DNA of 61,809 nt from Desulfoscipio geothermicus. Lineage in GTDB: Bacteria > Bacillota > Desulfotomaculia > Desulfotomaculales > Desulfallaceae. The position numbers and the translations under genes were made by a program. Positions within the stretch are counted from its first letter, which is position 1. Each line of letters begins with the position of its first letter. The notes beneath the pieces were generated by a model, which worked only from the letters and a program-made list of their open reading frames with translations, made no database searches and was not told the origin of the DNA. Location of the stretch: contig JAENYF010000013.1 in assembly GCA_016841905.1 (NCBI GenBank), forward strand, positions 1 to 61,809, read 5' to 3'. Positions 7,082 to 39,951 of the stretch are shown here, one piece after another.

Positions 7082-8803
7082 TTAAAATGGTATAAATATT
7101 AAATTAATCGGCAGGAAGGACCCGGCCGGCGGAATAAACTCCAGCACTTTTTCTTTACCCGGCTCGACCACACCAATCATGGCGTATTCCGTTTGTGGCT
7201 TTAATATACCCTTATTAGGCAAGTTAAAGGCCTCACCGTCCCAGGAACCGGCTCCAGCGAACACTCCACCCCGAGGTGAGAATACTACCCCAACTCGCTG
7301 CTGCGTGCCAATTCTAACTCGGTACACCACTCCGTAATTACCGGTGTCTTTACTAAGCAAGCTGTACCGTCCCATGGTGCTGGTATTGTTGTCCTTACCG
7401 TATAAAAATTTATCTTCTTTACCGTCAGCAATGATAAGCCTTGCCGGCTCATCACCCTTTAGCTGCACCGATACAGATCGATTAGCCAAAGAAAAAGTGC
7501 CTCGGATATGTTTATCATCCCGTGGTAGAATTGTTAAATTTTCGTATTCAATCAGCTGCACCTGACTGCCAACTGCGGCTACGGAATAAAGCAAGTTAGC
7601 ATCTGCATCCACATCAAACATTGCATTTATAACCTGTCCCGGCTCAAGAGTATTAACTATCCCTTCATTTATAATAACTTGTCCACCTGGCTGCAACACT
7701 AAAGTGCGAGCTTGACTTCGATCAAAATCCAGAAAACGGTAGGCAGCTGTTTTGCCCACAGACATAGCATCACTTGGGCCGGCCACACCCAACCTTTTAA
7801 TCACCAGTTTTACAGGTTTGTCTTCCTGGTTTATAGCCAAAAGAAAAATTCTCTTCTTCTCGTTTGAACCATTGATGTGGTGAAAATACAGGCGATTTTT
7901 CCCACGAAGGGTATCGCTGCAGAGGATACCGTCTTCTTTGATTTCCTCCGGACTATTGCTGACGAGCACTTGTTCCCTGGCCATGCTTACCGACGGGTCA
8001 AATTGTTTTAACTGTAGCACCGGTATGTTAAGGTTGCCCAGTGGTTCACCTGGTACAGGATTTTGCAGGTTGTAGGTAAGACGATCCATTTTAACTTCTT
8101 CTGTTACGGTTATTTTTTTGGTACAAGGCTCACTCCAGGCCCCCAGGCTGTCTTTAACCTTTAATGTTACTTCATATTCCCCCGGGGCAAAGAAAGCCCG
8201 TTCATTACCGATCCAAATTTCGGTTACGATTTGGTCGCCATCCGGATCGTTGCTTTGGTTTTCATATACCACCGTTTCACCCTGAGCCACAATTTCTTTA
8301 TTGATAACGAAGTAAGCTATGGGCGGTATATTAGCAGGTGTTAATTGTTTAATATTTATTTCCTTGGTTTGGGGCATAAAACTCACTCGATAGTTTAAGC
8401 TCTCCACCAAAAAACGCAAAGGGACCAGTGTTGTTTCATTTACTATAGTTGTTACTCCGGATATCGTTTGAGGCTCCCCGTTAATCACGGCCTGGTAACT
8501 ACCCGGCTGCAAAATGATGTTTTTGTCGTTTTGTTGAATAGCTATTTGATTGTCTTCTGTATTCCAGCCGACCTCAGCCCCAAAGATTTCGGCAATGAAG
8601 CGCAAGGGCACCAGGGTAATACCTTCATTAACCTGAGGTGCAGTTTCTAACTCATACGGCACTCCATCTACCCTAGCCTGGCTTTCGTTAAGTTTTAAAG
8701 CTACCGTGTCCACCTGTGTATTTGCCGGTGCGGCAATAACAGGAGCAGCAAGTAAAATACAGCTGAGTATGACAGCGCAAACATTTAGTATGTAACTTCG
8801 CAT
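7082..8803 (-). CDS. Exported stalk-domain (copper amine oxidase N-like) and PKD protein, copy 2
   Basis: Paralogue of the downstream gene, also 573 aa and collinear over its whole length: signal peptide, paired stalk repeats (TLVPLRFIAEIFGAEVGW, TLVPLRFLVESLNYRVSF), PKD-like domain, then the shared C-terminal region with KMDRLTYNL, LYFHHINGS, GVVFSPRGGVFAGAG and the terminal EFIPPAGSFLPINLIFIPF. The most conserved segments between the copies lie in this C-terminal part, which suggests that it is the functional part. The CGGAGG site sits 5 nt before the ATG. Function is unknown; a cell-wall or extracellular structural role is inferred from export and domain type. Confidence 0.85.
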   Translation of the reverse strand: MRSYILNVCAVILSCILLAAPVIAAPANTQVDTVALKLNESQARVDGVPYELETAPQVNEGITLVPLRFIAEIFGAEVGWNTEDNQIAIQQNDKNIILQPGSYQAVINGEPQTISGVTTIVNETTLVPLRFLVESLNYRVSFMPQTKEINIKQLTPANIPPIAYFVINKEIVAQGETVVYENQSNDPDGDQIVTEIWIGNERAFFAPGEYEVTLKVKDSLGAWSEPCTKKITVTEEVKMDRLTYNLQNPVPGEPLGNLNIPVLQLKQFDPSVSMAREQVLVSNSPEEIKEDGILCSDTLRGKNRLYFHHINGSNEKKRIFLLAINQEDKPVKLVIKRLGVAGPSDAMSVGKTAAYRFLDFDRSQARTLVLQPGGQVIINEGIVNTLEPGQVINAMFDVDADANLLYSVAAVGSQVQLIEYENLTILPRDDKHIRGTFSLANRSVSVQLKGDEPARLIIADGKEDKFLYGKDNNTSTMGRYSLLSKDTGNYGVVYRVRIGTQQRVGVVFSPRGGVFAGAGSWDGEAFNLPNKGILKPQTEYAMIGVVEPGKEKVLEFIPPAGSFLPINLIFIPF

Positions 8804-8944
8804 TCTTGCCTCCGTAATAAAAAATTCTGTTCCATTTATATATTATTTCAATATCCATTTGTGAATCCGCATTTTTGGCCATTTATGAAACCACACTATT
8901 GGTCACTAATAATTGGACGGATGTTAACACCTTCAGATAAATGA

Positions 8945-8971
8945 TAAGCGCTATTATAGAAATAGCGCTTA
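8945..8971 (-). terminator. Hairpin downstream of the TolC-like gene
   Basis: A perfect 11-bp inverted repeat (TAAGCGCTATT / AATAGCGCTTA) with a 5-nt loop lies about 90 bp after the stop of the TolC-like gene. The T-run is weak, so termination efficiency is uncertain. Confidence 0.55.
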
Positions 8972-9057
8972 ATTCTCCGCAAGGATAACAATTAGATTTG
9001 TATAGCAACGATACCAAACCTCTGCTTAATAAACAAAGAACATAGTATTAGCTAGAT

Positions 9058-10161
9058 CTAAACCAATTCTTTGCCCGTGAGGTTTTTAAAATTCGCTACC
9101 AGTATGGCATGTTGATATTTTAGCAACTCTAAATTAGTCTCATATGAAACCAGGGCTGCTTCACTCGTTTTGATATCCATTGTAGTAGCCATACCAACAT
9201 CGTATTTAACCTTAGTAACCCTTAATGTCTCTTCCGTTGCCTTGATAGCAGCATCTACTTTGTTGTATTGTTCTTCTGCAGCCTGGATGTCCTTATATAA
9301 TGTATAAACACCGTTACGTACTTCTTTACGTGCTTCCTCAACATTCAGTTCAGCTATACCAACATCAAGTTTTTCTATATCGTAGGAACTTAGTGCGCCT
9401 GAACCAGGGCCATAGCGAAAGTAACTTAAATCCATTTTTTGCAGGTTAACTAACTGCTGAAGGCTCCATAAGGTTTCGCTGCTTGTTTCAGCCCTGCTGG
9501 CCTCAGCATTTATATTATCGACTTTAAATGTCTCAAAGGCTATAGTGTCTTGAAGGATAGGCCTGTCTTCAGGCCATAAACCAATTACTGCATTAAGCTC
9601 AACAAAAGCTTTGTCCAAATTCTCACTGGCCTCCTGCAAAGCAGCAACAGAAGCTTGCACCGTTGATTGAGCCGTAACTATTTCCAGGTTAGATATAGTA
9701 CCTACTTGCGCACATATTTTAGCCAAGCGTTCGGACAATTGATCTTTAGCCAGCGTGATTTCCGCGTTTTTAATCTTTTCCTGGGCTATCAGCACGCTTA
9801 TATATTTTTGGTAGGCATCTAGTTTAACGCTTTTTTCTTCCTGTTGCAATAATTTGCCTTGAGTTAAGTATCTATTGCTCGTTTGCATTAATTTGGTAAA
9901 AGAAGATTCCGATTTTACATTTACGGGACCACCACCGCCACTGGGTCTTAAGCTAACATCATCTGCCGCATCATTTCTGGATTCCCAGGCCTGGTCTTTA
10001 GTCAAATTACCGCTTTTTAGAGCTGTACTATTATCTACAGCCATATTCAGCACATCTTCTATAGTTAATTGAGGAGTTACAGGTTCCTTAGCCAAAGCAA
10101 CTGAAGCTGTACCTAAAACTACCACGACCAGCGCCAAGAAAATTATGGTCAGTTTTTTCAC
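9058..10161 (-). CDS. Short TolC-like (outer membrane efflux family) exported protein
   Basis: Exported 367-aa protein with a Sec signal peptide ending near VALAKEP. The body is almost entirely alpha-helical with two half-repeats of long coiled-coil helices, as in TolC/OEP proteins; the second half ends in VKYDVGMATTMDIKTSEAALVSYE, the conserved family feature. Typical TolC proteins are 420-490 aa. Here the segments where the beta-barrel strands should lie are reduced to short glycine-rich stretches (RPSGGGGPVNVKSESS and RYGPGSGALSS). It therefore looks like a TolC fold without a membrane barrel, fitting a monoderm. It has its own consensus promoter and is separated from the RND operon by the stalk genes. 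Start is GTG with AAGGGTGGTGG upstream. Function is unproven. Confidence 0.8.
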   Translation of the reverse strand: MKKLTIIFLALVVVVLGTASVALAKEPVTPQLTIEDVLNMAVDNSTALKSGNLTKDQAWESRNDAADDVSLRPSGGGGPVNVKSESSFTKLMQTSNRYLTQGKLLQQEEKSVKLDAYQKYISVLIAQEKIKNAEITLAKDQLSERLAKICAQVGTISNLEIVTAQSTVQASVAALQEASENLDKAFVELNAVIGLWPEDRPILQDTIAFETFKVDNINAEASRAETSSETLWSLQQLVNLQKMDLSYFRYGPGSGALSSYDIEKLDVGIAELNVEEARKEVRNGVYTLYKDIQAAEEQYNKVDAAIKATEETLRVTKVKYDVGMATTMDIKTSEAALVSYETNLELLKYQHAILVANFKNLTGKELV

Positions 10162-29671: not shown

Positions 29672-29711
29672 AAAATTACCCTCCTTCCTCTGGGTCGTGG
29701 ACAAAAGGAAG

Positions 29712-29755
29712 GCGATAGCAGGTTAAGCAAGCTTTTCAACAAAACCTGCTATTGC
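29712..29755 (-). other. Strong hairpin between atpE and atpF
   Basis: 13-bp stem with one G-U-type position (GCGATAGCAGGTT / AACCTGCTATTGC), 18-nt loop. On the minus strand it follows the atpE stop by about 35 nt and lacks a T-run. Inference: a 3' stabiliser or partial terminator that raises the level of the high-copy c subunit. Confidence 0.55.
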
Positions 29756-29791
29756 ACCTTTCGCCACAGTATTCTTTAAGTATGATAAGAC

Positions 29792-30046
<255 letters not shown>

Positions 30047-30075
30047 CTAAATTTAAAAACATAAATTATGGTGGC

Positions 30076-30101
30076 ATATCTCTATTTTATTATTGAGATA
30101 T
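30076..30101 (-). other. AT-rich hairpin between atpB and atpE
   Basis: 7-bp arms ATATCTC / GAGATAT with a 12-nt loop, about 50 nt before the atpE ribosome binding site. Weak stability; could shape atpE translation. Confidence 0.35.
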
Positions 30102-30124
30102 CAGCTAGTTAAATAACAATGGCG

Positions 30125-30912: not shown

Positions 30913-31356
30913 TTATATTTTATCAACGGCATCACGTGGTGCCGTATAATAACGGTACAGCGCTAGATTGGCGTCAAGCACGGTAATTACGGTGGGCACC
31001 AAAAGTCCAGCTCCCACACCATATATGCTCAAATAATCTACCCGGCTGGCTAAAGCGATAATGCCAACAATCAACGCCATGCGGGGATAAAAGCCGGCCC
31101 GCATAAATGCCTTGGCCTTTTGTTGACTGATATCCGTTTGCGTCATCAATTCAATGAGCATGTTCATTCTTCTTACCAGTAATATACAGCTAATTATGCC
31201 AAATATACCACCAATAATAAAACCTAGTATTAACGGGTCCCCTGGATTAATGATCAAGCCAGATAAAGTCAAGAGTAAAATAAAGCCCATGATACTAATT
31301 GTACGTTTCAATTGCTCATCTATATTGCGTATGGGTGCCGGTTTATACAACCTCAT
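30913..31356 (-). CDS. atpI: AtpI-like ATP synthase subunit I
   Basis: 147 aa, four predicted membrane helices (about residues 20-37, 42-60, 78-98, 100-120). Small membrane protein at the head of atp operons; in related systems it aids c-ring assembly or Mg2+ uptake. The ATG abuts its GGGGGG site directly, while TTG two codons later has proper spacing, so the real start may be two codons downstream. Lies 5 bp after atpZ. Confidence 0.82.
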   Translation of the reverse strand: MRLYKPAPIRNIDEQLKRTISIMGFILLLTLSGLIINPGDPLILGFIIGGIFGIISCILLVRRMNMLIELMTQTDISQQKAKAFMRAGFYPRMALIVGIIALASRVDYLSIYGVGAGLLVPTVITVLDANLALYRYYTAPRDAVDKI

Positions 31357-31361
31357 CCCCC

Positions 31362-31586
31362 CTATTTAAAAAAACGATGCATGGAGCGAATAATACCCAA
31401 AATGCCAATAGCTACGCCTGTCAGAACGCCAGCCACTAAAAACCAAGGTTCCGTACCTAGCTTGTCATCCAGTATCCTACCACCATAAAAACCCAGCAGA
31501 GTCGTAACAGCTAGCTCAGTGCCAATGGTGGCAGTGACAGCTATGGCCACCATTGCTCCGTTTTTTTTGCTCTTCTGTTCTTCCAC
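31362..31586 (-). CDS. atpZ: AtpZ/AtpI family membrane protein
   Basis: 74 aa with two membrane helices (about 10-30 and 45-65) and the family phrase GRILDDKLGTEPWFLVAGVLTGVAIGILGIIR. First gene of the atp operon. Proteins of this family (DUF3464 / putative F0F1-ATPase subunit) are found beside atpI; a role in divalent cation transport or ring assembly is suggested in the literature. GTG start with GCGAGG upstream. Confidence 0.82.
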   Translation of the reverse strand: MEEQKSKKNGAMVAIAVTATIGTELAVTTLLGFYGGRILDDKLGTEPWFLVAGVLTGVAIGILGIIRSMHRFFK

Positions 31587-32087
31587 TTAAAACCTCGCTT
31601 ACCCGACAAAAATGTCTTGTGAATTATATTTTGTGCTATTCATTTTACAGCTTATGTAATGAGTAGACTTCTACATAAATATATGTATTCCTTCAGAAGT
31701 TCTGCATTTTTTATAAATTTATAATTTATTAAACTCTTTAATTTATTATAAAAATATACTCAATTTATTTTGTAATATAAAATAAAGATAAAGTAAATTG
31801 AAAATTTTTAATAAATTTAATTCCTCATATAATGTAAAATTTTATTTAATGCACCCGCTAATTGTCGCTACACATAATAACCTTTACAAAGCTTAGTCCA
31901 TCCCTTACCAGTAGTAAACAAAAGCAAATGTCGGCAAGAAGTGCCGGACACTCACCAGCGGAGCTTCGCCATTTTGCACTAACCAGACGGCTTTTATATA
32001 AGTGATTTTATTGTAAAAAAACGATAAATATAATAATATAACAATAATGAGCTAAAGTTAAACAGGTAAGACAAAGGCGGTGTAAAT
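31587..32087. other. Divergent intergenic region, atp operon / sigma-54 activator
   Basis: About 500 bp, very AT-rich, without a gene. A TATAAT about 50 bp upstream of atpZ (minus strand, near 31630) is a likely -10, with no good -35. A GC-rich patch at 31930-31972 contains small dyads (CGGCA-AGAAG-TGCCG) and stands out from its surroundings; possible operator or leader structure. No sigma-54 site with correct 10-bp spacing was found here. Confidence 0.5.
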
Positions 32088-34199
32088 ATGTTGGTGCAGG
32101 ATATCATGATCCCCAGTAATACAACTGTCCAGCCGGGGCAAACCGCCCTTGAAGCCTGGAAAATTATCAAACAGACACAGCTCATTGGACTTCCTGTCAC
32201 AGACCGGCAAGGAGTAATCATCGGAATTGTATCCCGAAATGAAATAATTAATTGCGGTCCCAAAGTGCTTGAGGAGAATATAAAAATTCAGGATATTATG
32301 CAGCAAGAGGTCTATGTTCTTAAAGAGGAAGCACCCGTTTCTGATGCCTGGACTTTGCCAGCCAATGTTTTTCCAGTGGTAGACAACAGCGGGGTTGTTA
32401 CAGGAATTTTGGACCGTTCTGACGTGGGACATGCTCTTTTTAAAGTAGCCAGCCAGATGTTTCAGCAAGTTGAAACCATCATGGATTCGGCCCATAACGG
32501 TATTGTTTCCATTGATAAAGACGGCATTATCAGCACATTTAATTTAGCGGCAGAACGTATAACCCATCGTAAAAAAAGCGAAGCTTTAGGACAGCATCTC
32601 TCGGAGGTTATCATCCCCCGTGGCCTATTAGATATTTTAGAAAACGGCAACTACCAATCTCATTATAAATTCTCTGTGGAGTACTCCTCAGGTATGCACA
32701 TTTACCTGACCAACCGCAGTCCCATCGTTGAAAATGGCCAGATAGTGGGTGCGATTGGCGTTTTTCAGGATATTTCGGAATTCGAATTTATTTCTGAGGA
32801 GTTAAGCTCAGTTAAGCAATTAAATAAAGAGCTTGAAGCTATAATTGAGTCGTCTTATGACGGGATTATTATAACTGACCGCAGTGGTCAAATTATCCGG
32901 GCCAATAAGGCTCACGAACGCATTACAGGCATTCCCGCAGCATCCATGCAAAACATGACCATGGCAGATTTAATCGCCAAGGGTGTTTATTCACAGTCGG
33001 TAGTTGAAGCCGTGATTGCACAAAATGGTACCGTTACCTTGTCCGAGCTCACCTCTGACCATAGTCAACTGCTAGTTACCGGTAACCCAGTACGCAACCT
33101 AAAGAGTGAAATTGTGCGGGTAGTAATCAATACCAGGGATATGTCGGATTTAAACAATTTAAAAAACCAGCTGGAAGAGAGCATTGCCTTAAGCGAACGC
33201 TATCACGGGGAGTTAACTCAGCTGCGCAGCAAACTAATTGACCAGTCGGGCTTAATCGTTAAGTCCATTCAAATGAAACAAGTGGTGGAAGTAGCTCTGC
33301 GGCTTGCTCAGGTTAATTCTACGGTGCTGCTGCTGGGTGAGTCTGGCGTGGGCAAGGAAGTGGTGGCTAAAGTCATCCATAAACATAGTAAACGGAGCAA
33401 TGGTGCATTTATCACTGTCAATTGCGGTGCAATACCTGAAAACCTGATTGAATCGGAGATGTTTGGTTATGAGAGGGGCGCGTTTACGGGAGCCAACCGG
33501 GAAGGCAAGCCCGGTATGTTTGAACTGGCGGACAACGGCACCTTATTCCTGGACGAAATCGGTGATTTACCGCTGCATTTTCAAGTAAAGCTGCTCCGGG
33601 CGCTGCAGGAAAGAGAAATTACTCGTATCGGCGGTACCAAACCTATTCCGGTAAACGTGCGGATTATTACAGCGACTAATCGACATTTGGAGGAATTGGT
33701 TCAGGACGGTAAATTCCGGGAGGATTTGTACTTCCGGCTTAACGTTGTGCCAATTACCATACCACCTTTACGAGAGAGAAAGGATGATATTATCCCTCTC
33801 GTCTACACCTTTAAAAAACACTTTGAAAAAGTGTACGATATGAAAAAAGAATTTTCCCACCAAGTCTTTAAAGATCTGATGGAATACCAGTGGCCGGGGA
33901 ATGTTCGGGAAATAAAGAATGTCGTAGAACGCTTGCTGGTCACCTCCACTGAACCGGTAATCAAGTCTGTGGCTATCCCACTTAGTAATACACCGCCCCA
34001 GCGACAGGAAGCGCATAAAGTCACCGTGCAGGGCATCCTCCCTTTAAAAGCGGCTCAACTAGAGATGGAGCGACAGCTCATCGGCGCCGCTTTAAAAGAG
34101 CTGGGCAGCACCTACAAGGCAGCCAAAGCACTGCAGGTGGACCAGTCAACGATTGTGCGCAAGGTAAACCGACTCAAAAACAACGGTATGTCACTATAA
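32088..34199 (+). CDS. Sigma-54-dependent activator with CBS, two PAS, AAA+ and HTH domains
   Basis: 703-aa enhancer-binding protein. CBS pair at about residues 1-118 ([25 protein letters not shown], then [23 protein letters not shown]), PAS1 about 122-230, PAS2 about 245-355, short coiled coil, AAA+ domain about 390-625 and a C-terminal Fis-type HTH ([19 protein letters not shown]). Key motifs: Walker A GESGVGKE 417-424, the sigma-54 contact loop GAFTGA 464-469, Walker B LFLDE 486-490. It has no receiver domain, so it is ligand- rather than kinase-controlled. Inferred inputs are an adenosyl or acyl-CoA ligand on the CBS pair and redox or small molecules on PAS. Likely targets are the adjacent acyl-CoA genes, which carry sigma-54 promoters. 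AAAGGCGGTG site. Confidence 0.95.
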
Positions 34200-34232
34200 C
34201 TAAGGTTCAAATATAGGTGCTAATATTAAAAC

Positions 34233-34260
34233 AACGGATTGCTGTATACAGCAATCCGTT
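34233..34260. terminator. Palindromic terminator of the sigma-54 activator gene
   Basis: Perfect 28-bp palindrome with 14-nt arms (AACGGATTGCTGTA / TACAGCAATCCGTT), ending in TTTGTTATT on the plus strand, 33 bp past the stop. It could work in both directions for the convergent biotin-carrier gene. Confidence 0.75.
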
Positions 34261-34494
34261 TGTTATTGGCACATTTAACAGTTAACTACCCATGCTTTAA
34301 ACCAACCTGCTTAATCTTGTGTTTATACTTGTTTTTAATAGTATGATTAATTGTGAAAAAACTATGTCAATCTCATCTACATCGGGTTCCACAGCTGCGG
34401 TGAGCAGGTAGTTTTATGCAGGTTGACCTCTGTGCCCGTATTATTATGGCTTACCCGCATCCCTATAGGTAAAGCAGAAATTATTAACAATGAC

Positions 34495-34707
34495 CTACTT
34501 AAGAGTTACCAGAACAGTATCAGTATTTACTACATCACCGGAACCTACGTTTACTTCGGCCACTTCACCGCTGCTTGGCGCATATACTTTAAATAGCATT
34601 TTCATAGCTTCCAGGGTAACCAGTACGTCATTCTTTTTAACTTGGGCTCCTACTTTTGCATCTACCGAAAGCACTTTTCCGACCATGGGAGCATTAACTT
34701 GTACCAT
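34495..34707 (-). CDS. Biotin carrier protein (biotinyl/lipoyl attachment domain)
   Basis: 70-aa stand-alone biotin domain. The biotinylation motif is EAMKM with K36 as acceptor, flanked by PMVGKVLSVDAKVGAQVKK and the mirrored second half PSSGEVAEVNVGSGDVV. It carries activated CO2 between active sites of a biotin-dependent carboxylase or decarboxylase. AGGTGG site. It follows the carboxyltransferase gene by 362 bp including terminator-like hairpins, so it may have its own promoter; none was recognised. The first residues lack the proline/alanine-rich linker of the gamma subunits of decarboxylases. Confidence 0.92.
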   Translation of the reverse strand: MVQVNAPMVGKVLSVDAKVGAQVKKNDVLVTLEAMKMLFKVYAPSSGEVAEVNVGSGDVVNTDTVLVTLK

Positions 34708-34962
34708 TTTTACTTACCACCTGATAATTATCCGTTTTGTTTTTGCCCTTGTTTTTTTAACCTGCCTGCTGCCCACTAATACCAGTACTCTACATAGCAG
34801 CATGGACACCGCAGGCAATGCAAAAACATTTATTCCAGACAGAGCCGCTAAATAAGCCCTTACCTCGGTCAACTATATTTATAAATTCCTACGCATAGGA
34901 ATGCTTATTTTCAAGCTAGGACAGCTTATTAAAACCAATTTTTGAAGTGTTTATTAGATAAA
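34708..34962. other. Intergenic sequence upstream of the biotin carrier gene
   Basis: No gene supported. Contains a perfect short dyad ATTCCTA-CGCA-TAGGAAT at 34885-34902. No convincing sigma-54 site (best candidates have 9 or 13 bp between GG and GC instead of 10). Confidence 0.45.
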
Positions 34963-35052
34963 CTGTGCCGACTATTTCGATGGCAATTTTAATGCACTAT
35001 AGCCGGCACAGCTTATTTTATACTGCAATAACAACCCTTGTCTGACAAGGTT
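34963..35052 (-). terminator. Tandem hairpins downstream of the carboxyltransferase gene
   Basis: Two hairpins follow the stop codon on the minus strand: AACCTTGT / ACAAGGGTT (35033-35052, one bulge) and a long one whose base is CTGTGCCG / CGGCACAG (34963-35011), followed by TTTATC. They probably terminate or attenuate transcription towards the biotin carrier gene. Confidence 0.6.
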
Positions 35053-35069
35053 CGCTAATGCTTTTCAAA

Positions 35070-36623
35070 TTACATATTAATGTTGGAGTATTTTCTCCAA
35101 GGTCTGGCTGGGTTCTTGTTTTCTAACATAGCCAGCGAAGCGCAGATTTTCTTTCTGGTTTCCGAAGGCAGTATGACATCATCCACATAGCCACGGGCTG
35201 CTGCGTGGTAGGGATTTTCAAAGGTATCGCTGTATTCTTTCTCCCGCTCTGCTTGTTTTGCATCCGGGTCTTCAGCGTTCCTGATTTCCTTAGCAAAAAT
35301 CACGCTGGCAGCGGTCTTAGCGCCCACGATGGTGAGGGTAGCTTCCGGCCATGCATAAACAATGTCGGCACCGGTATCTTTACAGCACATTCCCAGGTAA
35401 GCACCGGCAAAGGATTTACGCATCATGACTGCTATCTTAGGAACAGTAGCATCAATGTACGCATACAGCATCTTGGCACCGTGGCGAAGGATTCCTTTGT
35501 GCTCCTGATCAGGGCCGATCATGTAAGCCGGCGTGTCATGTAGATTGACCAGCGGAATGTTAAACAGATCACAGAACCGCACAAACCGAGCAACCTTATC
35601 AGAGGTATCACAATCAATAACGGCACCCATCCAGTTAGGCTGAGCAGCTACAATACCTGTGCTCCGGCCGTCAAAGCGGGCAAAGCCGATAATCGCGTTT
35701 TTAGCATAGTCTTCCATGATTTCAAAGAACTCGCCATTATCAACAATTTTATTGATAACATCGTGCATATCGTAGGGCATAAAGGTTTCTTCGGGGATAA
35801 ATCCATCCAGCTCAGGTACTAAGCGGTTAGGATCATCGCCGGTTTCCTTCCGGGCCGGTTTTTCCATGTTGTTCTGGGGCAGGTAGTCAAGCAGATTCTT
35901 GGCCAGGTCAAGGCAATCTTTATCGTCGCCGCCCACAATGTGGGTACAACCAGACTTAACAGCATGAGCTTGCACGCCACACAGATCATCCAAGCTGATT
36001 TCAATACCCAGCTGGGCTTTAACAAAGGCCGGGCCGGCAATGCCCATATAACCGTGGGTGCGACTCTGGATAACGAAGTCCTGCATAACAGGATGGTAAG
36101 CCTGTCCACCAAGGCAGGGGCCAAGCAACAGTGCAATCTGCGGGATAATACCGGAAGCCAGGTTCTGGGATTTGAACAGCCAAGCATAAGCTTGCAGAGT
36201 GTCCATACCTTCCTGCAGTCTGGCTCCGCCGGAGTCATTCAGACCAAAGAAGGGAATACCCATTTCTTTAGCCATGTCGATAGCGTTGGCAAATTTTTTA
36301 CCGTGATATTCACCAAAAGTACCTGCCATTGCAGTATAGTCTTCAGCACCAACCATGACCATACGGCCATTGACAGTACCATAACCACAGACAACGCCTT
36401 CAGCGGGGACTTTCTTTTGCTGCATACCAAACTCAGTGGTACGATGTTTAACAAAAGTACCGATTTCAGTGAAGGTGCCGGGATCAAAGAAATACTCGAC
36501 TCTTTCTCTGGCAGTCAGCTTGCCCTCTTTGTGCTGTTTTGCAACGGCTGCTTCGCCGCCCTGTTCCATAATTTCTGCTCTTCTGCGTAGAAAATCCTGA
36601 TACTTTGCACTTAATTCTGCCAT
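35070..36623 (-). CDS. Acyl-CoA carboxyltransferase subunit (methylmalonyl-/glutaconyl-CoA type)
   Basis: 517 aa, fused N- and C-lobes of a crotonase-fold carboxyltransferase as in MmdA/GcdA/PccB. Visible family signatures include KLTARERVEYFFDPGTF, the N-lobe oxyanion glycines in FFGLNDSGGARLQEG and LLGPCLGGQAYHPVMQDF, and the C-lobe GILRHGAKMLYAYIDATVPKIAVMMRKSFAGAYLGM. Transfers carboxyl between an acyl-CoA and biotin. The context adds a biotin carrier, but no biotin carboxylase and no membrane decarboxylase beta subunit is seen nearby, so the complex is incomplete here. Substrate is not certain: methylmalonyl-CoA and glutaconyl-CoA are the best candidates given the acyl-CoA dehydrogenase partner. 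A sigma-54 promoter lies 248 bp upstream. AGGAGG site. Confidence 0.9.
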   Translation of the reverse strand: MAELSAKYQDFLRRRAEIMEQGGEAAVAKQHKEGKLTARERVEYFFDPGTFTEIGTFVKHRTTEFGMQQKKVPAEGVVCGYGTVNGRMVMVGAEDYTAMAGTFGEYHGKKFANAIDMAKEMGIPFFGLNDSGGARLQEGMDTLQAYAWLFKSQNLASGIIPQIALLLGPCLGGQAYHPVMQDFVIQSRTHGYMGIAGPAFVKAQLGIEISLDDLCGVQAHAVKSGCTHIVGGDDKDCLDLAKNLLDYLPQNNMEKPARKETGDDPNRLVPELDGFIPEETFMPYDMHDVINKIVDNGEFFEIMEDYAKNAIIGFARFDGRSTGIVAAQPNWMGAVIDCDTSDKVARFVRFCDLFNIPLVNLHDTPAYMIGPDQEHKGILRHGAKMLYAYIDATVPKIAVMMRKSFAGAYLGMCCKDTGADIVYAWPEATLTIVGAKTAASVIFAKEIRNAEDPDAKQAEREKEYSDTFENPYHAAARGYVDDVILPSETRKKICASLAMLENKNPARPWRKYSNINM

Positions 36624-36743
36624 TTAATGGTCCTCCTCATATTTAACTTGGCTGTTTGGATTATCTTGCACAATACAGCCTAATATCATACAAAAAATTT
36701 AATCTAGTAATAATGGTGAAACGCTTTTGACAATATAATTAAC
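36624..36743. other. Leader of the carboxyltransferase gene, start-proximal part
   Basis: AT-rich transcribed leader without a gene. A TTGTCA hexamer followed about 15-17 nt later by TATTAC/TTACTA could act as a weak sigma-A promoter on the minus strand. The rest of the 601-bp gap holds the hairpin, orphan Shine-Dalgarno, sigma-54 promoter, dyads and terminator listed separately. Confidence 0.4.
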
Positions 36744-36781
36744 AGGCCTTAATAACCGAGTGCGACCTCGGCAGTAGGCCT
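36744..36781 (-). other. Two-tier hairpin in the carboxyltransferase leader
   Basis: Outer stem AGGCCT / AGGCCT and inner stem CCGAG / CTCGG with unpaired 4-6 nt between the tiers. It lies about 90-130 nt into the sigma-54-driven leader, directly after an orphan Shine-Dalgarno sequence. No known riboswitch class was recognised. Confidence 0.45.
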
Positions 36782-36794
36782 TCTAAATATTGCC

Positions 36795-36806
36795 GGACCT
36801 CCTTTC
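36795..36806 (-). promoter_or_regulatory. Orphan Shine-Dalgarno in the carboxyltransferase leader (STAB-SD-like)
   Basis: GAAAGGAGGTCC on the minus strand, 170 nt upstream of the gene's own site and with no ATG, GTG or TTG at usable spacing. It contains GAAAGGAGG, the core of the cry3A STAB-SD that stabilises mRNA. The only spaced codon is AUA, which would open a 13-codon frame ending inside the following hairpin. Confidence 0.5.
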
Positions 36807-36870
36807 CAAAATATGAATTAAAAAGCACAATACCGTAAATTAGGGTTCGAATACCATACCTTATTCAACA

Positions 36871-36886
36871 CGCAATAAACATGCCA
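36871..36886 (-). promoter_or_regulatory. Sigma-54 promoter of the carboxyltransferase gene
   Basis: Minus strand TGGCAT-GTTTA-TTGCG: the invariant GG and GC are separated by exactly 10 bp, and 9-10 positions match the TGGCAC-N5-TTGC consensus. It is 248 bp upstream of the start codon and has tandem dyads about 100 bp further upstream. Confidence 0.78.
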
Positions 36887-36966
36887 GGAGTAATATATTG
36901 CAACACATTTTCGTCGAACCGCTTCCAAGCTATCTAAATTACTTCACAGATTAACAAAATCTCCTT

Positions 36967-37016
36967 TTTTTGCAGAAGTATACTACTGCAAAAATGCATA
37001 GTCAATGCATTTTTGC
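36967..37016. promoter_or_regulatory. Tandem overlapping dyads, candidate upstream activator sites
   Basis: Two inverted repeats share one arm: TTTTTGCAG-N10-CTGCAAAAA (36967-36994) and GCAAAAATGCAT-AGTCA-ATGCATTTTTGC (36988-37016, perfect 12-bp arms). Three TTTTTGC half-sites result, spaced about two helical turns. Centre lies about 100-130 bp upstream of the sigma-54 promoter, the normal place for enhancer-binding-protein sites. Confidence 0.62.
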
Positions 37017-37135
37017 CAATACCAAACTAAATCCCTTAATATATTAACTTTATGGCAATGCTATACTGCATTAACAATTGGATTTGACTTGCTAGACATA
37101 AAACATGTTACACCTCAGCCAGTTTTGATATACAG

Positions 37136-37172
37136 AAAGCCACTTTTTTATGCGCTCAAAAAAAGTGGCTTT
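37136..37172 (-). terminator. Terminator of the acyl-CoA dehydrogenase gene
   Basis: Perfect 14-bp stem AAAGCCACTTTTTT / AAAAAAGTGGCTTT with a 9-nt loop, about 50 bp past the stop codon. Confidence 0.75.
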
Positions 37173-37224
37173 ACTTTAAATAAAGTGCTAAAATTTTATC
37201 TTTGTCATACTAACTAATTTAATC

Positions 37225-38382
37225 CTAGCGGTTAGGTGAGAAACCAAGTTCAATGTTAGCAATGATCTGCTGATGCATATTCGAGGTTCCTTCAAGGGTT
37301 TCAAACTGTTTGGAATCGCGGAGCCACCGGCCACAAGGATATTCATCGGAATAGCCGTAGGAACCGTAAATCTTCATAGCCAGATTGGCACCATGAACAG
37401 CTGCCTGGCAACCAGCCAATTTCGCGGTAGAAACAGCTTGCTGGCTGGGCAGACCATTATCTTTTAACCATGCAGCGCGGAACACGAGGTTTTTAGCAGC
37501 TTCGTCTTCGATGATCATTTCAGCGATCTGAGCCTGAATCATTTGATGTTTACCAATGGGAACGCCAAACTGCATACGTTCTGTTGCATATTGTACCGCA
37601 CCTTCTAAGCAAGCCTTGGAAAGAGCAGCGGATCCAGTAGCACAACCCATACGAGTATTGTTTAACTGCCACATACAGATAAAGAAGCCTTTGTTTAATT
37701 CACCCAGAAGATTCTCTTTAGGAACTACTGCGTTTTCAAAAATCAGTTCCGAAGTCGGAGCGGCCCACATACCAACTTTATCGTGAATGGGAATTCTTTC
37801 AATGCCAGGGGTATTATTATAGTCAATTATGAAGCAAGAGATCCCTTTTGCACCTTTGCCTTTTTCCGTAACAGCATAAAGCAATCCTACATCGCAAGAG
37901 TGTCCGCCGGAGATCCAGGTCTTTGTACCATTGATCAGCCAATGGTCGCCCTTGTCAACAGCATTGGTCTTCATGCTGGCTACGTCGGAACCGGTGTTAG
38001 GCTCGGTAATAGCAAAGCTGCCTACCGAAGTTCCGTCTAACAGTGAAGGGATATATTTTTCTTTCTGTTCTTGTGTACCATATTCGTTAATGGTCATGGC
38101 CGGACCCCAGTTATTACCGCTGATGGCCAGTCTCCAGGAAGTATGGACCTTAGCTATTTCATACAGTGCAATACAGCCCTCCTGCCAGCCCATGCCATTT
38201 CCGCCTAATTCTTCCGGCAAAGTCCAGCCCAGCAGGCCCAAGTCACCCATTTTAGTTAAAATTTCTCTGCGATAGTAATGGTTTTTTTCGTCTTCTTCAA
38301 CATAAGGAGCAATTTCTTTTTCAGCAAAATTGCGAGCCATATCCTGTACCATTTGTTGTTCGTCAGTCAAACCACAATACAT
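37225..38382 (-). CDS. Acyl-CoA dehydrogenase (possibly glutaryl-CoA type)
   Basis: FAD-dependent acyl-CoA dehydrogenase of 385 aa, usual length. N-terminal helical domain (LTDEQQMVQDMARNFAEKEIAPYV), FAD/substrate segment FAITEPNTGSDVASMKTNAV, C-terminal region with ERMQFGVPIGKHQMIQAQIAEM and YGSYGYSDEYPCGRWLRDSK. The catalytic base is expected at E364 in TLEGTSNMHQQ. It oxidises an acyl-CoA to the enoyl-CoA and passes electrons to ETF. Pairing with a carboxyltransferase and biotin protein suggests a dicarboxyl-CoA such as glutaryl-CoA, oxidised first and decarboxylated later, but the chain length is not proven. A sigma-54 promoter lies 80 bp upstream. AGGAGGG site. Confidence 0.9.
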   Translation of the reverse strand: MYCGLTDEQQMVQDMARNFAEKEIAPYVEEDEKNHYYRREILTKMGDLGLLGWTLPEELGGNGMGWQEGCIALYEIAKVHTSWRLAISGNNWGPAMTINEYGTQEQKEKYIPSLLDGTSVGSFAITEPNTGSDVASMKTNAVDKGDHWLINGTKTWISGGHSCDVGLLYAVTEKGKGAKGISCFIIDYNNTPGIERIPIHDKVGMWAAPTSELIFENAVVPKENLLGELNKGFFICMWQLNNTRMGCATGSAALSKACLEGAVQYATERMQFGVPIGKHQMIQAQIAEMIIEDEAAKNLVFRAAWLKDNGLPSQQAVSTAKLAGCQAAVHGANLAMKIYGSYGYSDEYPCGRWLRDSKQFETLEGTSNMHQQIIANIELGFSPNR

Positions 38383-38461
38383 TAATTATTCCCTCCTAAT
38401 TTTTAATATTACTGCAATGGTGATATCCAAAGCCACCAAAAAACATCTTGAGCTTTCAAAT

Positions 38462-38477
38462 TGCAAAAGCTGTGCCA
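38462..38477 (-). promoter_or_regulatory. Sigma-54 promoter of the acyl-CoA dehydrogenase gene
   Basis: Minus strand TGGCAC-AGCTT-TTGCA, a full consensus -24/-12 element with 10 bp between GG and GC, 80 bp before the ATG. It abuts a 39-bp perfect dyad. Confidence 0.87.
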
Positions 38478-38515
38478 TAACTTAATAATGAATTTACAAT
38501 TCATTATTAAGTTAT
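38477..38515. repeat. 39-bp perfect dyad abutting the sigma-54 promoter
   Basis: Arms of 18 bp (ATAACTTAATAATGAATT and its exact complement) around the 3-nt centre TAC. The last base overlaps the first base of the -24 element. A partial copy ATTAAGTTAT recurs at 38668-38677. Candidate operator or activator site; as RNA it would also form a hairpin in read-through from wecB. Confidence 0.75.
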
Positions 38516-38698
38516 TTAGTCAACTCTGCAATATATGGTATCTGTGAACTTTTTCTTAATATCCTTAATCATTATAAGCTAAAAAGCGGACAAGATCAAC
38601 AACCTTCTTGTTTAGCAATCCTTCAATTTTATTCAAATAATTCTTCTGTTTTGTAATGCTAACAATGATTAAGTTATCCATAACCAAAACACTATTAT
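38516..38698. other. Intergenic sequence between wecB and the sigma-54 promoter
   Basis: AT-rich, without a gene or clear wecB terminator. Holds the partial dyad copy near 38668 followed by GTTAT-CC-ATAAC-like symmetry, a possible second binding site about 190 bp upstream of the acyl-CoA dehydrogenase promoter. Confidence 0.4.
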
Positions 38699-39886
38699 TT
38701 AAAGTGCAAACTCCTGAGGTCGGCAGTCAGTAAGCTTAAAGGCATGCTTAATAGCCTGCACGATCCGCCCGGAGGCCTTGCCATCACCGTAAGGATTAAC
38801 TGCCTCGGCCATAGCCCGATAGTAAGCTGCGTCATTGAGCAGGCGCTCAGTCTCTGCTTGCACAACAGCGCGATCAGTGCCTACCAAGCGTACGGTACCC
38901 GCATCCACAGCCTCTGGACGTTCAGTGGTATTGCGCAGCACCAGTACAGGCTTGCCCAGCGAGGGGGCTTCCTCCTGCATGCCCCCGGAGTCAGTAAGCA
39001 CCAGGTGACAGCGTGCCATTAAATTTACAAAAGGCTCGTAATCCATGGGCTCAATTAAATCAACCTGCTGAGAATCCCCTAGCATCTGCTGCACTACCTG
39101 GCGCACAGCGGGATTTTTATGCACTGGGAAGATAACCCGTACATCAGGATGATTCTCTATGACATTCCGCAGGGCTAGGTAAATATCCCGCATTGGCTCA
39201 CCTAAATTTTCACGGCGGTGGGTGGTCATTAGGATCAGCCGGTGTTTAGTAAAATCCAGCTCCCTGAGCAGCAGGTCATTGAACTGGTAATCATTGCGCA
39301 CCGTAGCCAACAGGGCATCAATAACGGTGTTGCCGGCAACATAAACCCGCTCCGGGTCCACCCCTTCCAGCAGCAAGTTATTCCTAGCACCAGCGGTGGG
39401 AGCAAAGTGCAGATCACATAACGACCCGGCCAAACGACGGTTCATTTCCTCAGGGAACGGGGAATATTTGTTACCGGTTCGCAGCCCTGCTTCCACATGA
39501 CCAACCGGTACCTGCAGGTAATACGAGGCCAGGGCAGCTACAAAAGTGGTAGTGGTATCGCCGTGCACCAACACTAAATCTGGTTTTTCGGCCTCCAACA
39601 CTCCCTGCAGCCCAGCCAAAGCACGCCCGGTAATATCAAACAAAGTCTGGCCGGCCTGCATGATATTTAAGTCATGGTCAGGGACAATATCAAACAGCTG
39701 CAGTACCTGATCCAGCATTTCCCTGTGCTGGGCCGTTACCGCCACCCGGCACACCAGCCGTTCATCTGCTTTAAGCAACCGCACCAGGGGGGCCATCTTA
39801 ATAGCCTCTGGCCTGGTACCAAAGACAACTAAAATTTTGGGGTCTAGCTTTAATTTCCATAGACTAACCATATTTATTTCTACCAC
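38699..39886 (-). CDS. wecB: UDP-N-acetylglucosamine 2-epimerase (non-hydrolysing)
   Basis: 395-aa cytoplasmic epimerase interconverting UDP-GlcNAc and UDP-ManNAc for wall teichoic acid or other glycans. Two Rossmann domains; visible signatures are LVVFGTRPEAIKMAPLV, VLVHGDTTTTFVAALASYY, GHVEAGLRTGNKYSPFPEEMNRRL, TTHRRENLGEP and LTDSGGMQEEAPSLGKPVLVLR. Equivalent to Bacillus mnaA, which also lies next to the atp operon. Start is GTG at 39886 or ATG at 39871; GGAAAGTGG fits the ATG slightly better. Confidence 0.95.
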   Translation of the reverse strand: MVEINMVSLWKLKLDPKILVVFGTRPEAIKMAPLVRLLKADERLVCRVAVTAQHREMLDQVLQLFDIVPDHDLNIMQAGQTLFDITGRALAGLQGVLEAEKPDLVLVHGDTTTTFVAALASYYLQVPVGHVEAGLRTGNKYSPFPEEMNRRLAGSLCDLHFAPTAGARNNLLLEGVDPERVYVAGNTVIDALLATVRNDYQFNDLLLRELDFTKHRLILMTTHRRENLGEPMRDIYLALRNVIENHPDVRVIFPVHKNPAVRQVVQQMLGDSQQVDLIEPMDYEPFVNLMARCHLVLTDSGGMQEEAPSLGKPVLVLRNTTERPEAVDAGTVRLVGTDRAVVQAETERLLNDAAYYRAMAEAVNPYGDGKASGRIVQAIKHAFKLTDCRPQEFAL

Positions 39887-39951
39887 TTTCCGGCTGGTAG
39901 CATGTTATTCCGGCCATATTTTTATACCTTGGATTAAATTTTAAACTAACC

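Follow-up and report, generated by a model that had tools for sequence, protein, structure and literature searches.

A probable glutaryl-CoA oxidation and decarboxylation module beside its own sigma-54 activator in Desulfoscipio geothermicus, with pump subunits encoded elsewhere in the genome

A 61,809-nucleotide stretch of Desulfoscipio geothermicus DNA (contig JAENYF010000013.1 of assembly GCA_016841905.1; hereafter the window) carries, within positions 32088–38515, genes for a sigma-54 activator with CBS and PAS domains, a biotin carrier protein, a carboxyltransferase (CT) and an acyl-CoA dehydrogenase (ACAD). The source bacterium is related to anaerobic degraders of aromatic compounds. We think it likely that these genes form the soluble half of a pathway from glutaryl-CoA to crotonyl-CoA with its own sigma-54 activator, the pump half having been relocated. 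An earlier note, made from the sequence of the window, had placed a CBS-PAS-PAS activator beside the other three genes, and open reading frames (ORFs) together with Pfam matches confirm them (Table 1); its reading of the locus as an acyl-CoA pathway, with glutarate and aromatic acids among the guessed substrates, is likewise in line with our results. Its term "self-contained" does not apply: the locus lacks the decarboxylase subunits beta and delta, which are encoded at other sites, and another contig holds the genes of the likely preceding steps, had and the end of oah. The comparisons below involve the window's genome (G000) and 15 other genomes of the family (G001–G015), among which G004 is the closest relative, with the genes in identical order and with activator, CT and ACAD 95–97% identical to those of the window.

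The CT and the biotin carrier are best read, from their homologies and from the operons of relatives, as the soluble half of a Na+-pumping decarboxylase. Structure matches of the CT fall in the PCC-beta/12S/MmdA class, and the biotin carrier is retained in relatives. The operons of relatives encode a beta subunit of about 370 amino acids between biotin carrier and activator, and the ORF of about 50 amino acids that separates CT from carrier in 7 of the 11 operons examined is an overlooked delta subunit; the G005 version exceeds the OAD_gamma Pfam cut-off (28.5 vs 27). The loci of G000, G002, G003 and G004 have lost beta and hold only a decayed delta. The remnant in the window aligns to an intact delta on G000 contig C33 with a score of 71.6, against a largest value of 46.3 among 300 shuffles. 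Of a Gcd/Mmd-type decarboxylase, the locus itself thus holds CT and biotin carrier, with beta and intact delta present elsewhere in the genome. Between the CT and biotin carrier genes lies a long inverted repeat (34952–35022; 24-nucleotide arms, 83%), the stem of which is conserved by eye in relatives and which may serve unequal expression of the two genes.

Seven delta-beta pairs were found elsewhere in these four genomes, six of them with a decayed biotin carrier visible by eye between the two genes; none is visible in the pair on contig C2 of G004. The relocated betas occur in all four genomes, each with a delta upstream, are about 82–87% identical to the G005 operon beta, and form a clade (support 95/86) nested in the genus's operon betas in the beta tree. 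The decayed carriers and this nesting are consistent with a duplication of the operon's delta-carrier-beta end and a later reciprocal loss. The G000 pairs lie on contigs C33 and C41; contig C62 ends within a third delta, upstream of which stands the second exact genomic match to the sigma-54 pattern TGGCACNNNNNTTGCW. A relocated G000 beta exceeds the TIGR01109 cut-off. No -24/-12 element was found upstream of the C33 and C41 copies, and no activator dyad with up to two mismatches at the G000 delta-beta copies. Neighbours of the G003 and G004 copies include a sodium symporter, an amidohydrolase, another CBS-type activator and a class III CoA-transferase whose best-scoring model is succinate-glutarate transferase (302 bits vs a cut-off of 750), and those of the G002 and G003 copies include a CitMHS/ArsB-type transporter and a 55–56% paralogue of the activator.

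Close delta-beta copies are thus spread over separate loci; some of them have a -24/-12 element in front and a further CBS-type activator nearby. As a tentative idea, delta-beta might be an interchangeable pump half, with the soluble half, under its own activator, docking on whichever copy the substrate induces; if true, energy coupling would be wired separately from carbon chemistry. On G000 contig C5 (511–4566), a 56% paralogue of the activator adjoins a CitMHS/ArsB-type transporter at the contig start, the same couple that adjoins the delta-beta pair in G002 and G003. On contig C69 (2351–9614), a further biotin carrier (56%) and beta (47%) lie near another sigma-54 activator, a predicted second decarboxylase-type locus in G000.

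Turning to the dehydrogenase, the best structure match of the window's ACAD is the non-decarboxylating glutaryl-CoA dehydrogenase 3mpi. This enzyme (type A) is replaced in the same slot of G001, G007, G009 and G010 by a type B enzyme of about 50% identity, which passes the cut-off of the profile GlutCoADH_Des (NF045552). Across 15 family genomes (all but G014), each genome holds one match of at least 394 bits to this profile, type A in nine and type B in six; the next best match reaches 371 bits. In a midpoint-rooted tree of 37 rows, which has long branches and includes one further match from each of 13 of the 15 genomes (all but G000 and G007), 22 rows, comprising types A and B together with 3mpi, group with support of 100/100. 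All 22 rows carry Arg where glutaryl-CoA dehydrogenase has its Arg and replace the Tyr by Leu or Val, a combination seen in none of the other 15 rows, which have Gly or Ala and Tyr; the window's ACAD has R and L. The Arg is reportedly the carboxylate-binding residue, and the Tyr, which precedes the catalytic Glu, is said to be absent from non-decarboxylating glutaryl-CoA dehydrogenase (an account attributed to Wischgoll, 2010). Two Pelotomaculum genomes encode type A enzymes 85 and 89% identical to the window's, with CTs 74% identical, a difference that suggests horizontal spread of type A. A further ACAD-like gene in G000 (contig C26, 15599–16750) has one TAA within the matched stretch; internal stops also occur in one ACAD match from each of G005, G007 and G015.

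The activator contains GAFTGA, and the genome encodes RpoN (one match, 213.6 bits vs a cut-off of 22.8), the check that the earlier note had set for its sigma-54 reading. Activator orthologues of 66–96% identity occur in 14 of the 15 other family genomes, with none found in G014. Judged on score alone, the -24/-12 element before CT is within chance (21.7 in the window scoring scan, a level at which 1.65 sites are expected and 3 were seen), and a looser pattern gave 82 matches against 101 expected; support was therefore taken from conservation in relatives. Across five genomes of two genera, the promoter is invariant in 15 of 17 columns and the dyad in 19 of 29, compared with 155 of 607 bases for the whole intergene. 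Of the 12 wecB-to-activator operons read, 11 have a strict sigma-54 promoter in front, and nine have the strict dyad TGCAT-N5-ATGCA upstream, with variants by eye in G007, G009 and G010. Promoter and dyad precede CT in G000, G002, G003, G004 and G011, and ACAD in the remaining operons.

For the dyad, 12 genomes were searched with one arm plus core as query, at most two mismatches and the reversed pattern as control. The G000 search returned the CT dyad on both strands and one two-mismatch match on contig C72, the control also giving one match, and because of this result we consider that the activator in G000 probably has one local target. Further two-mismatch matches occur in G005, G007, G013 and others. 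Together, RpoN, GAFTGA and the conserved -24/-12 element with its upstream dyad at CT bear out the proposal that the sigma-54 activator has a target operon close by.

The earlier note had also claimed that the module interrupts a wecB-atp gene order, and the comparison agrees. Matches to wecB numbered 47 in 46 of 51 genomes, 30 of these genomes lying outside the family; among the best 30 of the 47 loci, which were those examined, atpB is found no more than 1.5 kb after wecB at all 14 loci from outside the family, whereas ACAD comes after wecB in 15 of 16 loci within it. The remaining locus, in G015, has neither ACAD nor atpB within 1.5 kb. The module was therefore probably inserted between wecB and atp already in the family ancestor.

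Together, these proteins probably form a pathway in which ACAD would oxidise glutaryl-CoA to glutaconyl-CoA without decarboxylation and CT would transfer the carboxyl group to the biotin carrier. The membrane subunit beta and its small partner delta would then release CO2 and export Na+, both being supplied by the delta-beta pairs that were relocated from the ancestral operon to other sites in G000. The activator would bind the TGCAT-N5-ATGCA dyad and open the CT promoter. The sequence itself shows the gene content, its conservation, the delta remnant, the relocated copies and the dyad, from which the substrate, Na+ transport, DNA binding and induction are inferred. A benzoyl-CoA route to glutaryl-CoA is likely in G000, because had exceeds its cut-off (485 vs 339 bits) and the end of oah is present (the last 83 positions at the end of contig C84; 96.5 bits, a fragment below cut-off). 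Only 6 of 15 family genomes have oah (TIGR03200) over cut-off, so some members would have other sources of glutaryl-CoA. ACAD type was considered as a marker of aromatic degradation and rejected for want of a clean link, the oah-positive genomes comprising five of type A and one (G015) of type B. A sodium-type ATP synthase beside the module was likewise rejected: the neighbouring c subunit (29705–30124) reads GIGDG...GLIEALP, which we take to be without Na+-binding ligands. The adjoining ATP synthase is for that reason probably a proton enzyme, and the Na+ gradient would then be used by other systems.

Several observations weigh against the proposed pathway. The window's ACAD falls below the GlutCoADH_Des cut-off (395 vs 470 bits) and its CT below that of TIGR01117 (mmdA; 674 vs 998.8 bits), mmdA being the best NCBIfam model; the C33 delta is below the OAD_gamma Pfam cut-off (24.3 vs 27), and the join of type B with 3mpi is weakly supported (80/26). 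G006 lacks the strict promoter pattern, a variant being visible by eye, and the dyad search gave no match in G010. The assembly of G000 (3.08 Mb, 91 contigs, 93% complete) is incomplete. In Pelotomaculum, type A and CT are not neighbours: type A comes after genes that look by eye like thl-hbd-crt, and the ACAD adjoining CT in P. terephthalicicum is type B; this placement is the main doubt about the substrate of type A. An acyl-CoA other than glutaryl-CoA, such as another dicarboxylyl-CoA or a C4 acyl-CoA, would accord with that placement and with the coexistence of both types there, with the missed curated cut-off and with the Leu of type A where GDHDes has Val. We nevertheless hold it to be unlikely, since the nine type A genomes have no other match of at least 394 bits, which would leave CT with no such supplier of glutaconyl-CoA, and since the 13 further matches (one each from 13 of 15 genomes) have the Gly or Ala and Tyr of butyryl-CoA dehydrogenase. 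That CT and carrier instead serve propionate metabolism, as parts of a methylmalonyl-CoA decarboxylase or transcarboxylase, with ACAD an unrelated neighbour, seems improbable to us: the structural class of CT and its best model agree with it, but the mmdA cut-off is missed, ACAD has the dicarboxylate-type Arg, and ACAD and CT are linked across the family with two ACAD versions, and with type B in other families too. Least probable of all is that CT and carrier operate with no sodium pump, a mode proposed for Geobacter bemidjiensis in the portion of PMC2996986 consulted; this precedent and the lack of beta or intact delta at the locus speak for it, yet beta genes with an upstream delta persist elsewhere in all four genomes that lack both at the locus.

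A more serious alternative concerns the promoter of ACAD within the proposed module. The earlier note had placed two sigma-54 promoters under one activator; both GG-N10-GC elements exist, and the CT promoter stands with its conserved dyad, but the claim for ACAD is weakened. No activator dyad was found upstream of the ACAD element in the five genomes with the promoter before CT, and there is a sigma-A-like promoter some 100 bp beyond it on the upstream side. The element may thus be no promoter, with ACAD transcribed from a sigma-A promoter whether or not the activator is at work, a reading to which we give real weight, if clearly less than an even chance. The sigma-A-like pattern is seen by eye also in G002, G003 and G004; such sites in the region number 14 against 10.2 expected, not above chance. 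Against a promoter of sigma-A type alone, the ACAD element is one of only two exact occurrences of TGGCACNNNNNTTGCW in the 3.08-Mb genome (the other being the C62 site upstream of the delta copy). It ranks first in the window scoring scan (at least 23.0: 0.1 expected, 1 seen); at up to one mismatch, the genome gave 111 matches to TGGCACNNNNNTTGCW and 51 to the reversed pattern. The element is retained in all five genomes, of two genera, with the operon promoter downstream of ACAD (G000, G002, G003, G004 and G011), and its GG is lost, by eye, in G005, where that promoter is upstream of ACAD. Moreover, the dyad 1.4 kb downstream might in principle act on it. In our view ACAD is probably transcribed from the sigma-A promoter plus the sigma-54 element. 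The perfect palindrome adjoining the element was rejected as an activator site, being imperfect or absent by eye in G002, G003, G004 and G011, with the strict pattern in G000 only. The ACAD leader also contains a small hairpin, GGTGGCTTTGGATATCACC (38419–38437), similar by eye in G002, G003, G004, G005 and G011; across 31300–39900 no Rfam match was obtained at E up to 1.

Table 1. Features of the locus, in window coordinates.
Feature	Position	Strand	Evidence
Sigma-54 activator (enhancer-binding protein), CBS-CBS-PAS-PAS-AAA+-HTH, 703 amino acids	32088..34199	+	Pfam: 2 CBS, 2 PAS, Sigma54_activat, HTH_50
Terminator-like stem between convergent activator and biotin carrier genes	34233..34260	.	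9 terminator-like sites in region vs 4.6 expected
Biotin carrier protein, 70 amino acids, AMKM motif	34495..34707	-	Biotin_lipoyl, 62.9 bits
Remnant of delta (OAD_gamma-like) subunit gene	34732..34876	-	Alignment to intact C33 delta and to relatives
CT (decarboxylase alpha), 517 amino acids	35070..36623	-	Carboxyl_trans, 545 bits
Putative sigma-54 promoter of CT, CTGGCATGTTTATTGCG (-24/-12 element TGGCATGTTTATTGCG at 36871-36886)	36871..36887	-	Pattern scan, scoring scan, conservation
Second inverted repeat, overlapping CT dyad	36967..36994	.	14-nucleotide arms, 93%
Activator-type dyad GCAAAAATGCAT-N5-ATGCATTTTTGC	36988..37016	.	Inverted repeat, 12-nucleotide arms, 100%; conserved in relatives
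ACAD type A, glutaryl-CoA dehydrogenase-like, 385 amino acids	37225..38382	-	Profile, structure-match and tree evidence
GG-N10-GC element of ACAD, ATGGCACAGCTTTTGCA (-24/-12 element TGGCACAGCTTTTGCA at 38462-38477)	38462..38478	-	Pattern scan, genome scan, scoring scan
Perfect palindrome, 18-nucleotide arms, adjoining ACAD element	38477..38515	.	Not conserved
Sigma-A-like promoter TTGATC-N17-TATAAT upstream of ACAD	38571..38599	-	10/12 matches, consensus -10

The locus offers a testable regulator, promoter and binding site for a step at which anaerobic aromatic-acid degraders may recover energy as a sodium gradient. It also presents an energy-conserving complex whose soluble and membrane halves were apparently separated by duplication and reciprocal loss, such that the locus read alone would make the pathway seem either complete or uncoupled, and it documents one glutaryl-CoA dehydrogenase type replacing another in the same operon slot.

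Among known systems, Desulfococcus multivorans and Syntrophus aciditrophicus combine a non-decarboxylating glutaryl-CoA dehydrogenase with a Na+-dependent glutaconyl-CoA decarboxylase, according to the sections of PMC5852087 consulted. The module resembles this system in having the same enzyme pair by homology, with the dehydrogenase Arg kept and the Tyr absent; it differs in that its dehydrogenase is of a distant type, its pump subunits lie away from CT, and a sigma-54 activator and dyad stand beside CT. In Geobacter bemidjiensis, as in the window, a dehydrogenase adjoins a carboxyltransferase (GDH-GcdA), and neither has pump subunits next to it; according to the portion of PMC2996986 consulted, the G. 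bemidjiensis genome lacks the remaining subunits, whereas G000 encodes them elsewhere. A cluster of Pelotomaculum terephthalicicum JT places a type B ACAD in one row with CT and a related activator (47%), adjoined by genes read by eye as had and oah. Unlike in the window, the type A ACAD of that strain is separate, the cluster has another chromosomal setting, and the stretch read gave no beta or biotin carrier match. In Desulfocucumis palustris (7973–9813 of locus L193), two genes that are CoA-transferase subunits by eye are divergent to the related activator of a type B ACAD-CT operon.

The regulator likewise has counterparts among the 39 activator groups described for Clostridiales sigma-54 regulons in the part of PMC6615313 consulted, which include one-component activators with PAS and, in some cases, CBS domains, most of which have a single target operon nearby, with dyads located 100–250 bp upstream. 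The words decarboxylase and glutaconyl do not occur in the main text of that paper, its supplementary tables lying outside this check. In the open-licence literature, without supplements, we found no description of a split operon, swapped dehydrogenase or dedicated dyad regulon of this kind. Compared with these systems, the kinds of enzyme and regulator are already known, and what is new is that the pump is split, that the dehydrogenase has been exchanged and that the dyad regulon is a dedicated one.

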